A DNA stretch of 64,000 bases from Actinomadura xylanilytica (lineage in GTDB: Bacteria; Actinomycetota; Actinomycetes; Streptosporangiales; Streptosporangiaceae), in contig NZ_JASNWE010000004.1 of NCBI RefSeq assembly GCF_030283145.1, positions 1,047,704 to 1,111,703 on the forward strand, in the 5' to 3' direction. Below, piece after piece: positions 49,185 to 53,571 of this stretch (positions within the stretch are counted from its first letter, which is position 1; each line of letters begins with the position of its first letter). The notes under the pieces are model-generated. The model saw nothing but the letters and a program-made list of their open reading frames with translations, searched no databases and was not told the origin of the DNA. A program made the translations under genes and the position numbers.

Positions 49185-49419
49185 GCGACCAGGCCACGAC
49201 CGGGAGGACGGCGCCCCGTCCGGACGGCGCTTCGACCCGGGCGGCCCGATCGCCGGGCTGTTCTTCCTCGCCGTGGCGGGCGTCCTCCTGGCGAGCGGCC
49301 TGTCCGGCGAGCTCGTCGTCGGGCTCCGGGTGCTGGTGCCCGCGGTGCTGATCGGGCTCGGCCTGGTGGGCATCGTGCGGATCCTCACCCGCGCCGCGCG
49401 CCGCGACCCCCGGCAGTGA
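49177..49419 (+). CDS. 80-residue membrane protein coupled to PspC gene
   Basis: Two hydrophobic helices (about 25-42 and 46-68) after an acidic N-terminus. GTG start lies inside the end of the PspC gene (8-nt overlap), so it is translated with it. Likely an accessory of the same envelope-stress unit. No family recognised. Confidence 0.75.
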   Translation: MTERPGHDREDGAPSGRRFDPGGPIAGLFFLAVAGVLLASGLSGELVVGLRVLVPAVLIGLGLVGIVRILTRAARRDPRQ

Positions 49420-49420
49420 T

Positions 49421-49436
49421 TGTGACCTAAGTCACA
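49421..49436. promoter_or_regulatory. perfect CRP-type palindrome
   Basis: TGTGACCTAAGTCACA matches the CRP consensus TGTGA-N6-TCACA exactly. It lies right after the small PspC-unit gene and 46 bp before the Cys leader start, so it most likely controls leader plus symporter. CRP-family regulators with this consensus are known in actinobacteria (Rv3676). Confidence 0.65.
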
Positions 49437-49482
49437 TCCCCCGATGGGAACACGCATTCCGGACATCAGGTTGACTACCTCC

Positions 49483-49569
49483 GTGAGGTTCTCCGAGAAG
49501 AGCGTTCTGCTCGTGGCCCGGCTGCACATCGACCTGTGCCGCCTCGCCAGCGTCACCTGTCGCGCCTGA
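49483..49569 (+). CDS. 28-codon leader peptide with two Cys (candidate cysteine attenuator)
   Basis: GTG-initiated ORF encoding MRFSEKSVLLVAR, then LHIDLCRLASVTCRA: Cys19 and Cys26. The pattern R-L/H-H-x-D-L-C-R ... C near the end is that of actinomycete attenuation leader peptides preceding sulfur and cysteine genes. No Shine-Dalgarno; TTGACT sits 6 nt before GTG, so a leaderless transcript is likely. Stop is 212 bp before the symporter start, with a C-rich G-poor tract and a hairpin between. Inferred role: ribosome stalling on Cys codons when Cys-tRNA is scarce prevents termination. Confidence 0.72.
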   Translation: MRFSEKSVLLVARLHIDLCRLASVTCRA

Positions 49570-49573
49570 CCAG

Positions 49574-49607
49574 TCCCCCCGCCTTCTTCTCCCACTCCCC
49601 TCCCTCC
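49574..49607 (+). promoter_or_regulatory. C-rich, G-poor tract, candidate Rho-loading (rut) site
   Basis: 34 nt with 23 C, 9 T, one G and one A, starting 5 bp after the leader stop codon. Strikingly depleted in G for a 73 % GC genome. A translating ribosome finishing the leader would expose this tract to Rho; a stalled one might cover or restructure it. Confidence 0.55.
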
Positions 49608-49689
49608 GCAGCCCGCCCCGGATCCGCGCACGCCCCGGCGCCCTCGCACCGAAACGCTCGCGCCAAGGCACCCGCCCGTCCACGGTCCC

Positions 49690-49711
49690 GCGTGCCCGCC
49701 CCGCGGCACGC
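49690..49711 (+). promoter_or_regulatory. hairpin between leader and symporter
   Basis: 7-bp perfect stem GCGTGCC/GGCACGC with 8-nt loop, about 120 bp after the leader stop and 70 bp before the symporter GTG. Weak alone; may help Rho release or pausing. Confidence 0.35.
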
Positions 49712-49781
49712 CCGGACCGCGCGCCGAGTGCCCGTGCGCCCGGACCCGGCAGGCTGCCGTGATCCTCCTGGAGAACGCTCC

Positions 49782-51107
49782 GTGAACCTGCGCGTCTGGA
49801 AATGGCAGTTCTGGCAGCAGATCGTGCTGTCCCTCGTGCTCGGCGTGGCCGCCGGCGCACTGATCAACAACCTCGGCGACGGCGAGAAGATCGCCGGGAA
49901 CTGGCTCGACCCGTTCGGCGACGTCTACATCAGCCTGCTGAAGGTCGTGGTCGTCCCGCTGGTGTTCGCCGCGATCGTGGTGAGCGTCGGGCGGCTCCGC
50001 AACGTCGGCAGCGTCGCCCGGCTGACCGGCAAGACCCTCGGCTGGTTCGTGGCCACCTCGGCGATCGCCACCGCGATCGGGCTGGCCGTCGGGCTGATCG
50101 TCAAGCCCGGCGAGGGCCTCGGCAAGCTCGCCAGCGAGTCCGCCGAGACCGAGCCGGTGACCTGGACCCAGGTGCTGCACAACCTGTTCCCGTCCAACAT
50201 CGTCAAGGCGATGGCGGACGGCAACGTGCTCGGCGTCGTCACCTTCGCGGTGCTGTTCGGCGCGGCGCTGGTCGCGATCGGCGAGCGCGGCGAGCGGCTG
50301 ACCGGCCTGATCGACGACCTCTACCTGGTCATGCAGAAGGCCGTGTGGTGGGTGGTGCGGCTCACCCCGATCGGCTCGTTCTTCCTGATCGGCTCGGTGG
50401 TGGCCACCTACGGCCCGAGCTCGCTGTCGCCGCTGGCCAAGTTCACCGGCGCGATCTACCTGGCCGTCGCGGTGATGCTGCTGATCGGCTACCCGGTGCT
50501 GCTGCGCGTGTTCGGCCGGGTCTCCCCGCTGAAGTTCTTCCGCAACTCCTGGCCGGCGATCCAGTTCGGCTTCGTCTCCTCGTCCTCCCTGGCCACCCTG
50601 CCGATCGCGCAGCGGGTGCAGATCGAGCGCAACGGCGTCCAGCCCGAGTACGCCAGCTTCGCCCAGCCGCTCGGCGCCACGATCAAGTTCGACGGCTGCG
50701 GCGCGATCTACCCGGCGGTCGCCGCGATCTTCGTCGCGCAGTACACCGGGATCAGCCTCGGCCTGGCCGACTACGCGCTGATCGCGCTGGCCGCGGTGAT
50801 CGGCCAGCTCGGCACCGGCGGCACCCCCGGCCCGGCCCTGGTCGCGCTGACCCTGACCCTGACCACCGTGGGTCTGCCGCTCCAGGCGGTCGGCTACCTG
50901 ATCGCGATCGACAAGGTCATCGACATGGCCCGCACCGCGCTGAACGTGGCCGGTCAGCTCACCGTCCCGGTGCTGGTCGCCCGGTCCGAGGGGCTGCTCG
51001 ACGAGGACATCTTCACCAGCACGCCCGTCGAGCTCACCTCCGCGGAGGCCGATGAGTCGCGCGAGACCTCCCGGACCCGGCAGCCCGCCGAGCCCGCGAC
51101 CGCCTGA
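49782..51107 (+). CDS. DAACS-family cation symporter, probable cystine importer (TcyP-like)
   Basis: 441 residues, about eight helices plus re-entrant loops. The serine-rich hairpin SSSSLATLP and GQLGTGGTPGPALVALTLTL are dicarboxylate/amino acid:cation symporter signatures. The substrate loop that in glutamate carriers reads NMDGT reads KFDGCGAIYPA here, with Cys for Thr, a variant I recall from TcyP/YdjN cystine symporters (memory only). GTG has GGAG 8 nt upstream. The Cys leader upstream and the cysteine dioxygenase downstream support cystine. Glutamate or C4-dicarboxylate remain alternatives. Confidence 0.85.
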   Translation: MNLRVWKWQFWQQIVLSLVLGVAAGALINNLGDGEKIAGNWLDPFGDVYISLLKVVVVPLVFAAIVVSVGRLRNVGSVARLTGKTLGWFVATSAIATAIGLAVGLIVKPGEGLGKLASESAETEPVTWTQVLHNLFPSNIVKAMADGNVLGVVTFAVLFGAALVAIGERGERLTGLIDDLYLVMQKAVWWVVRLTPIGSFFLIGSVVATYGPSSLSPLAKFTGAIYLAVAVMLLIGYPVLLRVFGRVSPLKFFRNSWPAIQFGFVSSSSLATLPIAQRVQIERNGVQPEYASFAQPLGATIKFDGCGAIYPAVAAIFVAQYTGISLGLADYALIALAAVIGQLGTGGTPGPALVALTLTLTTVGLPLQAVGYLIAIDKVIDMARTALNVAGQLTVPVLVARSEGLLDEDIFTSTPVELTSAEADESRETSRTRQPAEPATA

Positions 51108-51149
51108 CCCGACGGCCGCACGGCCCGCGAACGCCCGGCCCGACGGCCG

Positions 51150-51187
51150 GCGGAGGCACCCCCGCTCCCGAGCGGGGGTGCCTCCGC
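51150..51187. terminator. bidirectional terminator, 17-bp perfect stem
   Basis: Arms 51150-51166 and 51171-51187 (GCGGAGGCACCCCCGCT and complement), loop CCCG. Lies between convergent symporter (43 bp after stop) and dioxygenase (50 bp after stop). Confidence 0.85.
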
Positions 51188-51237
51188 GGTTCACGGCATC
51201 GCCGTGAGCACGGCGGCGCACGCCGGCCTGATCTCCA

Positions 51238-51690
51238 CTATGCGGTGTCGTCCGACGGCCCGGCGTGCAGGGTGATCGCGTACGAGGGGCCCGGGTTGGT
51301 GAGCTCGTGGGTGTGGCCGCCGCCGTGCACCCGGACCCGGTTGGCGCGCAGGGCCCGTCCGGCGACGCCGTCGGAGGCGAGGGTGACCTCGGCCAGCTCG
51401 CCGACGATCACCGCGCTGACCACGGCGCCCGCGTGGCCGTGCAGGCCGGTGCGGTGGCCGGGCGGCCAGACGGTGAGCCAGAGCCCGGTCCCGTCGGCCC
51501 CGCCGAGCGGGACGCGGACCGGTGCGGCGGCGTCGAACGTCACCCGGTGCCACCAGTCGCCCGGACGGGCGGCCAGCGCGTGCACGCGGGCGGCGAGCTG
51601 CCCCACGGTCGGCGGACGCCGCCGCAGCACGCGTCCGTGCGGGTCGTCCTGCCCGCGCATCGTGAGGTCGGGAACCATGTCGAGGTTCAC
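51238..51690 (-). CDS. cysteine dioxygenase-family cupin protein
   Basis: 150 residues. Likely oxidises cysteine to cysteine sulfinate. Iron ligands are visible as HGHAGAV (two His) and HTHELTN in the second cupin half; WWHRVTFD and LWLTVWPPGHRTGLH precede. GTG 51690 is chosen because AAGGAT lies 6 nt upstream; a GTG eight codons earlier has no such site. It is preceded 84 bp upstream by a five-Cys leader ORF, and converges with the putative cystine symporter, so import and catabolism of cysteine are side by side. Confidence 0.85.
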   Translation of the reverse strand: MNLDMVPDLTMRGQDDPHGRVLRRRPPTVGQLAARVHALAARPGDWWHRVTFDAAAPVRVPLGGADGTGLWLTVWPPGHRTGLHGHAGAVVSAVIVGELAEVTLASDGVAGRALRANRVRVHGGGHTHELTNPGPSYAITLHAGPSDDTA

Positions 51691-51774
51691 AGGCTGATCC
51701 TTCGTGACCGGCACCGTCGGCGCCGAGGAGAGCTGGGAGGGGCCGGGGAGCGGTCACCCGGGCGGGGAATGCGG

Positions 51775-51858
51775 TCAGCTACGACAACACGAAGGACACA
51801 GCGCGCAGGCCACGCGGCGAAGGGCCACAAGGCTTTCGATGCAGAGGCGCGCTGGCAT
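51775..51858 (-). CDS. 27-codon leader peptide with five Cys (candidate cysteine attenuator)
   Basis: ATG-initiated ORF, 27 residues, ending VACALCPSCCRS then TGA: Cys at 6, 18, 21, 24 and 25, i.e. four within the last ten codons. Basic residues before (ALRR) fit the leader pattern. No Shine-Dalgarno; a -35 TTGACA (51890-51895) with TCTGCT 18 bp on places the transcript start at or next to the ATG. The 60 nt after the stop are C-rich on the coding strand (CTCCCCGGCCCCTCCC). Only Cys density, geometry and position support it. Confidence 0.7.
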   Translation of the reverse strand: MPARLCIESLVALRRVACALCPSCCRS

Positions 51859-51865
51859 GCCCCCT

Positions 51866-51895
51866 AGCAGACACTCAACTACGGAGAGTTGTCAA
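51866..51895 (-). promoter_or_regulatory. promoter of the dioxygenase leader with embedded inverted repeat
   Basis: -35 TTGACA at 51890-51895 and weak -10 TCTGCT at 51866-51871 with 18-bp spacing, both on the minus strand. CAACT-N6-AGTTG (51876-51891) overlaps the -35 and could be a repressor site. Confidence 0.5.
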
Positions 51896-51923
51896 GTCGG
51901 GGCGGCGGAGGGCGACCGCGAGT

Positions 51924-52006
51924 GTTCACGCCCCGGCCACCCCGGATCCCGGCCGTGTCCGCCGCGCCGCGAGAGCCTGCCCCAGGATCACGCTTGAGTC
52001 TTGAGT
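51924..52006 (+). promoter_or_regulatory. possible PHO box and 7-bp tandem repeat before the phosphatase gene
   Basis: GTTCACGCCCC (51924-51934) followed in phase by GGCCACCCCGG resembles two 11-nt PhoP direct-repeat units, the second poor. CTTGAGT occurs twice in tandem at 51993-52006. Together they are the only features seen upstream of the PhoD-like gene. Confidence 0.3.
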
Positions 52007-52020
52007 GAACGGAGTCGGCC

Positions 52021-53571
52021 ATGGTGCTGGATAGACGGACCCTTCTGCGCAGTGGCGCCATAGCGGGCGGCGGTGCCGCGCTCGGCCTGCTCGGCGGCGG
52101 CACCGCGTCCGCCGCGCCCGGTCTCGTCCGCAGGGGCCGGCCGCGCCTCACCCACGGTGTGCAGAGCGGTGAGGTGACCGGCCGCGAGGCGGTCGTGTGG
52201 GCGCGCTCCGACCGTCCCGCACGGATGCTCGTCGAGGTGAGCCGCCGTCCCGACTTCAGGAACGTCCGGAGTGTGCGCGGCCCCGTGCTCACGCCCGAGA
52301 CCGACCTGACCGGCAAGGCGTTCCTGCACGGCCTCCCCACCGGCGAGGACCTGCACTACCGCGTCCGCCTCGCCGACCTCGACCGGCACTCCCTCCTCTC
52401 CGAACCGGTCACCGGCAGGCTCCGCACCGCGCCCGGCGCCAAGCGGGACGTCTCGTTCGTGTGGTCCGGCGACCTCGCCGGCCAGGGCTGGGGCATCGAC
52501 CCGGCCCTCGGCGGATACCGGATCTTCAACGCGATGGGCGCGGTCGACCCGGACTTCTTCCTGTGCAGCGGCGACCTGGTCTACTCCGACGGCCCGCTCG
52601 CCGAATCGGTGAAGCTCCCCGACGGCCGCACCTGGCGCAACGTCCTCACCGCCGAGAAGGCGAAGGTCGCGCAGACGCTCGCCGACTACCGGGGCCAGTT
52701 CCGGTACAACCTCCTGGACGCCAATCTCAAGGCGTTCAACGCCCGCGTCCCGATGCTCTATCAGTGGGACGACCACGAGGTCCTCAACAACTGGTACCCC
52801 GGCGAGATCCTCGACCTCCCCGAGTACACCGAGAAGCGCGTGGACGTCCTGGCAGCCCGCGCCCGCCGCGCGATGCTGGAGTACACCCCCACCGCGATCC
52901 GTCCCGCCAGGAACGGCCGCCTCTACCGCAAGGTGTCCTACGGCCCGCTGCTGGACGTCTTCATGCTCGACATGCGCACCTACAAGGACGCGAACGGACC
53001 GGACGACTCCCCCACCCAGCGCGACGGCCTGCTCGGCGCCGAGCAGGCGTCCTGGCTCAAGCGCGAACTGAGCCGCTCCAAGGCCACCTGGAAGGTCATC
53101 GCCGCCGACCTCCCGATCGGCCTGGTCGTCCCCGACGGCACCGCCCAGGAGGCCGCCGCGCAGGGCGACGGCAAGGCCCCGCTCGGCCGCGAGCGCGAGA
53201 TCGCCGACCTCCTCTCGTACGCCAAGCGCCACCGCGTCCGGAACATGGTGTGGCTGACCGCCGACGTCCACTACACCGCCGCGCACTACTACGACCCGTC
53301 CAAGGCGGCGTTCAAAAACTTCGACCCCTTCTGGGAATTCGTATCGGGTCCCCTGAACGCCGGCGCCTTCGGTCCCAACGCCCTCGACGCCACCTTCGGT
53401 CCCCAGCTCAAGTTCCAGCAGGCGCCCCCGCACGCCAACACCTCACCGGCCGAGGGCTTCCAGTTCTTCGGCCAGGTGGAGATCGACGCCCACAGCAAGA
53501 CCCTCACCGTCCACCTCCGCGACATCGACGGCGCCGTGCTCCACTCCACGGCCCTCACCCCCGCCCGCTGA
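52021..53571 (+). CDS. PhoD-type alkaline phosphatase, Tat-exported
   Basis: 516 residues. Tat signal DRRTLLRSGAIAGGGAALGLL then ASAAPG cleavage region; the N-terminal PhoD domain (HGVQSGEVTGREAVVWARSDRP) is followed by the metallophosphoesterase core: SGDLVYSDGP, QWDDHEVLNNW, LDMRTYKDANG, and WLTADVHYTAAHYY (metal His). GGAG 6 nt before ATG. Secreted phosphodi/monoesterase for phosphate scavenging by family knowledge. Confidence 0.92.
   Translation: MVLDRRTLLRSGAIAGGGAALGLLGGGTASAAPGLVRRGRPRLTHGVQSGEVTGREAVVWARSDRPARMLVEVSRRPDFRNVRSVRGPVLTPETDLTGKAFLHGLPTGEDLHYRVRLADLDRHSLLSEPVTGRLRTAPGAKRDVSFVWSGDLAGQGWGIDPALGGYRIFNAMGAVDPDFFLCSGDLVYSDGPLAESVKLPDGRTWRNVLTAEKAKVAQTLADYRGQFRYNLLDANLKAFNARVPMLYQWDDHEVLNNWYPGEILDLPEYTEKRVDVLAARARRAMLEYTPTAIRPARNGRLYRKVSYGPLLDVFMLDMRTYKDANGPDDSPTQRDGLLGAEQASWLKRELSRSKATWKVIAADLPIGLVVPDGTAQEAAAQGDGKAPLGREREIADLLSYAKRHRVRNMVWLTADVHYTAAHYYDPSKAAFKNFDPFWEFVSGPLNAGAFGPNALDATFGPQLKFQQAPPHANTSPAEGFQFFGQVEIDAHSKTLTVHLRDIDGAVLHSTALTPAR

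Follow-up and report, generated by a model that had tools for sequence, protein, structure and literature searches.

The closest described systems are the leaderless open reading frames (ORFs) with Cys codons of Mycobacterium smegmatis, which, according to the accessible parts of two papers, act by attenuation (PMC9031893, PMC13236596). Precedent for mycobacterial poly-Cys leaders is also found in the available text of PMC4633059 and PMC9094748, and the primary work on the leaderless poly-Cys short ORFs is that of Canestrari et al. 2020, as cited in PMC9031893, PMC9094748 and PMC13236596. In addition, as given in the accessible portions of the sources, Cys leaders have been predicted before cys operons (PMC1262725), and the uORFC-8-2 motif upstream of cysS in Rhodobacterales has conserved Cys codons in an upstream ORF (uORF), for which ribosome-mediated attenuation was proposed (PMC8632094). 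Here, a stretch of 64,000 nt from Actinomadura xylanilytica (contig NZ_JASNWE010000004.1, positions 1,047,704 to 1,111,703 of the forward strand), the whole of which is called the window, is considered for two convergent genes, each preceded by a Cys-codon leader of its own. One encodes an SDF-family symporter and the other a protein of the cysteine dioxygenase (CDO) family. On balance, we favour the view that both genes are raised when charged tRNA-Cys is scarce, the CDO arm by means of a lock on its Shine-Dalgarno (SD) sequence, and that the pairing of the two is inherited.

The CDO leader resembles the mycobacterial poly-Cys ORFs, as the available descriptions present them, in being a short ORF with Cys codons that probably lies close to the 5' end of its transcript, or at that end, and would rely on slow Cys decoding; the mycobacterial ORFs precede cysteine-metabolism genes. 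It differs from them, on those descriptions rather than on leader sequences, in that its Cys codons complement the downstream SD and in the gene that follows, which encodes a CDO-like protein. With uORFC-8-2 it shares conserved Cys codons in a uORF; that motif, in the accessible text, ends in an intrinsic terminator and uses mostly UGC (PMC8632094), whereas the CDO leader uses UGU and is predicted to act by SD sequestration. A literature search, with subscription papers largely outside it, found no Cys leader described before this symporter or this CDO-like gene.

Comparisons were made in a genus sample of 60 Actinomadura genomes, that of the window included, with thresholds of E<=1e-60 for the symporter and E<=1e-8 for the CDO family. 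The CDO-like loci read number 58, that is, 57 of the 59 other genomes and the window; G030 and G051, which have CDO-family matches, are left out. Two symporter loci (L083 and L092, from genomes G053 and G036) are without sequence upstream of the symporter, leaving 26 readable leader loci. An earlier account of this DNA made from its letters alone (the sequence-only reading) had placed a separate Cys-coding leader on each arm, and this holds: the symporter leader is present in 26/26 loci and the CDO leader in 58/58, and neither is due to chance. The elements of the CDO arm are as follows.

51690-51238, minus strand: CDO_I-family (thiol-dioxygenase-fold) ORF of 150 amino acids, start GTG at 51690, assigned from Pfam CDO_I, an AlphaFold model and a structure match.
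51858-51775, minus strand: CDO leader ORF, start ATG, 27 codons, 5 Cys, MPARLCIESLVALRRVACALCPSCCRS followed by the stop, conserved in 58/58 genus loci.
51788-51797, minus strand: anti-SD GTCCTTCGTG within the Cys codons, predicted 5' arm of the sequestering helix from pairing and folding analyses.
51697-51706, minus strand: SD region CACGAAGGAT of the CDO-like gene, predicted 3' arm of the same helix from the same analyses.
51890-51895, minus strand: TTGACA, resembling a -35 element, 37 nt ahead of the leader ATG.

In the 58 genus loci (57 found by pattern, L078 from the listing), a short ORF ahead of the gene always carries its Cys codons in a cluster close to its stop. The leader is likewise present in all of an overlapping set of 54 named loci (48 by pattern, 6 by eye) with CDO-like relatives, nearly all of them from Actinomadura, plus Thermomonospora, Spirillospora and two metagenome-assembled genomes. 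Within the searches made, the CDO-like gene with its own leader therefore appears only in Actinomadura and near kin. At E<=10, none of the NCBIfam models, NF042934 included, matches the leader, and no convincing second copy is found in its own genome, where the next-best match (30 nt, 87%, E 0.004) falls within a gene that resembles acetolactate synthase by eye. An Rfam scan of window positions 49300-52100 gave one irrelevant match at E<=1, below its gathering score.

The number of Cys codons varies and their identity hardly does. The sequence-only reading counted 2 Cys in the symporter leader against 5 in the CDO leader; the counts are right for the window, but 5 is peculiar to this genome, as two of the five precede the part of the leader that is conserved. 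Counted from the first conserved Cys onward, there are 3 in the window and 2 to 5 among 61 distinct CDO leaders, with a mode of 3. Since the number varies among orthologs, the idea that 2 and 5 Cys codons set two thresholds is weakened. The Cys codons of CDO leaders are UGU in 181/185 cases, whereas the 29 window ORFs have TGC 93 times and TGT 4 times (4/97). After the second Cys codon the count is UGU in 60/63, a preference that exceeds what the helix described below demands.

The TTGACA element occurs upstream of the CDO leader in 57/57 loci, and in 43/57 it is 35-38 nt from the most upstream in-frame start. This spacing would fit a leaderless CDO-arm transcript. A separate observation concerns the start of the leader, where CAGCGCG is complementary to CGCGCUG, immediately ahead of the first conserved Cys codon; the sequence is retained in divergent leaders too and perhaps forms a second helix.

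The feature that sets the CDO arm apart is that its Cys-Pro-Ser-Cys codons, UGUCCUUCGUGU, are complementary to the SD region of the CDO-like gene, ACACGAAGGAC. Against shuffled spacers, the best helix between Cys codons and SD reaches p<=0.05 in 48/57 loci. In a pairing table of 61 distinct rows (identical rows removed), 602/671 helix cells (90%) are paired, with all 11 pairs formed in 31/61 rows; this count includes L070, L075, L078 and L095 in the wrong register, on account of inserted codons. When helix partners are permuted, 592.8 +/- 2.5 pairs result and 10/5000 permutations reach the observed 602. Thus, covariation of Cys codons and SD is genuine, yet modest. In one clade, with GUCCUGCC in the leader, the SD is CAGGAC, a compensating change; the helix of that clade alone is not significant. 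Leaders with extra codons (L070, L075 and L095) retain the anti-SD despite its shifted place in the peptide. RNAalifold, applied to 54 leaders with their spacers, gave no useful consensus because spacer length varies.

Folding was predicted for 67 of 69 loci, L091 and L099 having given no start. In the free RNA, the median probability that the SD is unpaired is 0.01 and that of its pairing with the Cys segment is 0.99. The unpaired median rises to 0.37 when a ribosome occupies the first conserved Cys codon and to 0.40 when it stands at the stop, and is 0.00 in a control in which only the first 27 nt are covered. A rise above 0.3 is seen in 37/67 loci versus 1/67 in the control. In silico, then, both the helix and its opening place the leader where it would control the downstream ribosome-binding site. 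The proposed course of events is one of translational attenuation. A short, probably leaderless ORF ends in UGU Cys codons that would pair with the SD region, so that the ribosome-binding site of the free RNA is closed. When charged tRNA-Cys is low, decoding of UGU would slow, and the ribosome would cover the anti-SD and leave the SD open.

The elements of the symporter arm, with the hairpin that separates the two genes, are as follows.

49421-49436, no strand assigned: Crp/GlxR-like palindrome TGTGACCTAAGTCACA, ahead of the symporter leader, motif in 19/26 symporter loci.
49446-49472, plus strand: extracytoplasmic function (ECF)-sigma-type promoter, GGGAAC-N18-GTT, separated from the leader GTG by 10 nt, motif in 20/26 loci.
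49483-49569, plus strand: symporter leader ORF, start GTG, 28 codons, VRFSEKSVLLVARLHIDLCRLASVTCRA followed by the stop, 2 Cys (codon 19 UGC, codon 26 UGU).
49782-51107, plus strand: SDF-family (dicarboxylate/amino acid:cation) symporter, possibly for cystine/cysteine, Pfam SDF 363.9 bits.
51150-51187, no strand assigned: perfect 17-bp hairpin in the gap where the two genes converge, lacking a U tract.

Unlike the CDO leader, the symporter leader is a member of NCBIfam NF042934, "putative leader peptide" (cis_reg_atten), with 30.8 bits against a cut-off of 27. In the 26 Actinomadura loci both Cys positions and their codons are invariant. Beyond the genus, a leader with the motif [HY][VI]DL and one or more Cys close to its stop stands before 30/31 symporter homologs whose upstream regions were read; the sole exception, L032, has only a diverged Cys-bearing ORF. 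A promoter motif, GGGAA[CT]-N17-20-GTT, is present in 20/26 loci versus 0.04 expected from shuffles, has a spacer of 18 or 19, and always lies exactly 10 nt from the leader GTG (20 loci), a spacing that suggests a leaderless transcript. The palindrome GTGA-N6-TCA[CT], found in 19/26 loci, is expected in 0.08 from mononucleotide shuffles. We take its regulator to be of the Crp/GlxR type, and the promoter presumably resembles those of SigR/SigH.

The Crp-like palindrome and the ECF-type (SigR/SigH-like) promoter are stacked at 49421-49472, which suggests a carbon and thiol-stress input alongside cysteine. Right after the leader stop, window positions 49570-49620 form a C-/T-rich, G-poor tract that is present in many orthologs and is a possible candidate for a Rho-loading site. 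In folding predictions, the symporter SD is paired with the opening 27 nt of its leader at a median of 0.82, with values of >=0.5 in 18/26 loci and not in the other 8/26; because of those 8, this pairing is not claimed. Sequestration of the symporter SD by the leader's Cys codons was also considered and finds no support in folding.

Leaders of the NF042934 type recur in the same genome (downstream genes named by eye). Above the cut-off, they are also found before a second thiol-dioxygenase gene (on contig C6), a DUF4395/rhodanese pair, a 2-oxoacid oxidoreductase and a HEAT-repeat protein; below it, before sulfite reductase and a sulfonate-binding protein. At E<=10, matches below the cut-off occur in 10/14 control genomes as well, and so the weak matches in the own genome (C3, 22.3 bits; C5, 11.7 bits) are leads only. 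The symporter leader, preceded by a Crp-like site and a promoter of the ECF type, would therefore be one of a genome-wide set, several of whose members stand before sulfur genes. The second thiol-dioxygenase gene, G000:C6:74143-74668 (loci L002 and L125), has the usual HDH...H residues behind its Cys leader of the NF042934 type. A third such gene (G000:C1:1412050, L003), judged by eye, is similar to the ergothioneine dioxygenase of known structure.

The name "cysteine dioxygenase", used in the sequence-only reading, is not confirmed. The window protein matches Pfam CDO_I above the cut-off (23) with only 31.4 bits, and a phmmer search of the PDB returned no chain at E<=0.001. A CDO-family match is present in 60/60 genus genomes, weak in G051. 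Alignment with the C6 paralog places a three-His site at H84, H86 and H128, which we take to be the iron ligands. The C-terminal motif of the family is, we assume, S-x-H-x-Y; its Tyr, present in the C6 paralog, is replaced by G144 in the window protein and is missing from the column in 58/58 rows. An AlphaFold model built with 40 sequences has a mean predicted local distance difference test score (pLDDT) of 81.6, versus a poor 52.6 with 11 sequences. Its nearest solved fold is ergothioneine dioxygenase (Z 16.5, 2.4 Å over 124 residues), followed by cysteine dioxygenases from bacteria and mammals (Z about 13-15), and a family profile search again places the ergothioneine enzyme first (E about 1e-5). 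The protein shares its fold and HxH...H triad with the Thermocatellispora ergothioneine dioxygenase (8qfl-8qfr) and with cysteine dioxygenases, but differs from them in its 23-25% identity in structural alignment and its replaced Tyr, which corresponds by motif to the residue mutated in 8qfo (Y149F).

The iron site itself varies in the genus, as all three His are present in 19/58 orthologs and at least one ligand is lost in 39/58. This loss, together with the ergothioneine enzyme as nearest solved fold, leaves the earlier assignment of the gene to disposal of cysteine by oxidation doubtful. The triad is intact in 17/28 genomes with the symporter versus 2/30 without it (Fisher p 1.3e-5; the cut locus L092 is included in this count and excluded from the gap list and the tree). 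On the tree there are 4 triad changes and 5 symporter changes, with only 2 independent pairs on well-supported branches, and co-evolution of symporter and triad was set aside since the Fisher value rests on so few events. No relaxation of selection is seen after triad loss; the median ratio of nonsynonymous to synonymous rates (dN/dS) is 0.39 in triad-less pairs versus 0.37 in triad-bearing pairs, so the gene is apparently still under selection. We would not call the product a cysteine dioxygenase and refer to it as a divergent thiol-dioxygenase-fold protein.

The symporter is found in 28/60 genus genomes and is missing from 32/60. At E<=1e-75 it has a match in 111/394 genomes drawn from the class, and homology searches thus indicate that the symporter with its Cys leader is widespread and kept well beyond the genus. 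The label "TcyP-like", given to it earlier, is retained as a lead only. The window symporter shares 33% identity (167 bits) with Escherichia coli TcyP, a cystine/sulfocysteine:cation symporter of the SDF family, and the GCxxxYPA motif in transmembrane segment 7, which is not in GltP or DctA; however, GltP scores slightly higher (30% identity, 182 bits), and a small SDF tree neither rejects nor shows grouping with TcyP (p-AU 0.417). The substrate is possibly cystine or cysteine.

How the two genes came to lie together is a separate matter. They occur on one contig in 25 loci (one partial) and are convergent in 25/25, so that the expected conservation of the pair is borne out within the genus. 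A dedicated two-gene module is not supported, however: the symporter is missing from more than half of the genus sample, and outside the genus no CDO homolog was found near it, either in 29 loci read with 1.5 kb flanks or in 6 read over about 8 kb. Among the 24 complete loci the gap is below 350 nt in 8 and 0.8-4.8 kb in 16, and several of the wide gaps hold other long ORFs, TetR-like and secreted lyase-like genes by eye. A TetR-like regulator gene lies between the two in several species (L064, L074, L063). In the four tightest gaps, hairpins of 15-17 bp are found in three and one of only 5 bp in L071. The shared 17-bp-stem terminator of the sequence-only reading is a perfect hairpin of that length, but not a U-tailed intrinsic terminator, as it has no T run on either strand and is absent from the terminator scan list.

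These data would be explained if two unrelated members of a cysteine regulon are adjacent by common descent, their products without functional link. In addition to the wide gaps, a PspC-type gene is present in the fetched stretch in 22/24 other loci with the symporter and in 28/30 without it, and in a related genus L230 has the symporter next to PspC, while the surrounding stretch of about 8 kb holds no CDO homolog. The steadiness of this neighbour at loci without the symporter also tells against a dedicated two-gene module. On the other side, within the genus the symporter and the CDO-like gene were seen on different contigs only in G015, G035 and G044, where contig breaks may explain the separation. 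Common descent without functional link is, with some reserve, probable, and it is compatible with the explanation favoured here, as both treat the pairing as inherited. The pairing is accordingly read as an inherited slot in a genus-level chromosomal neighbourhood.

Under the favoured explanation, both arms are predicted to rise when cysteinyl-tRNA is short and so have the same sign. Several results weigh against it. On the CDO arm, 9/57 loci miss p<=0.05 in the shuffled-spacer test, the near-constant helix allows no more than modest covariation, and SD pairing with the Cys segment is below 0.5 in 11/67 loci, partly from a wrongly picked SD. On the symporter arm, ribosomes on the Cys codons alter the predicted SD state little. 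The predicted opening of the SD is just as large for a ribosome at the CDO-leader stop as for one at the first Cys codon, so the sign of the response depends on ribosome dwell time and is one that we infer. Lastly, a thiol dioxygenase raised in cysteine starvation would be odd if its substrate were cysteine.

The effect of a ribosome at the stop also agrees with a reversed scheme. TnaC is a leader peptide that stalls the ribosome when tryptophan is plentiful. If the CDO-arm peptide stalled the ribosome at plentiful cysteine, the same SD would open and the gene would be on at high cysteine, a sign that would fit a disposal enzyme. The peptide core VALRRVASALC is kept in most loci, with some synonymous change, as such a peptide would be. 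However, the divergent relatives L155, L158 and L161 keep MPAR at the start of the peptide and ALC...CCR at its end, the latter being the anti-SD part, and not the middle, and stalling by the nascent chain is considered unlikely. The module first supposed, in which paired leaders of opposite sign set two thresholds so that cysteine is imported when scarce and oxidised when abundant, draws on two real and conserved leaders, an invariably convergent arrangement and the more frequent triad in symporter-bearing genomes, but is very improbable, since an SD lock opened on Cys codons gives the starvation sign, the same as import, the triad link comes from few events, the symporter is so often absent, and the CDO leader is retained where the triad is lost.

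Returning to the starvation switch, in which UGU would be both sensor and lock, a tentative proposal, rather doubtful as it stands, is that the gene under its control encodes a thiol-dioxygenase-fold protein whose iron site is being lost genus-wide, whereas the switch itself is retained. The product would then be either an oxidase that scavenges sulfur from another thiol or a cysteine-stress protein without catalysis, and not an enzyme of cysteine disposal. Relative to the known leaderless Cys attenuators, what would be new is that the sensing codons themselves lock the ribosome-binding site, which would provide a compact, testable cysteine switch outside mycobacteria. The symporter leader, conserved well past the genus, would tie a little-studied actinobacterial symporter to cysteine nutrition. 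On the CDO arm, a regulatory leader appears to have outlasted the active site of the enzyme that it controls, and this casts doubt on the "cysteine dioxygenase" label for this gene.

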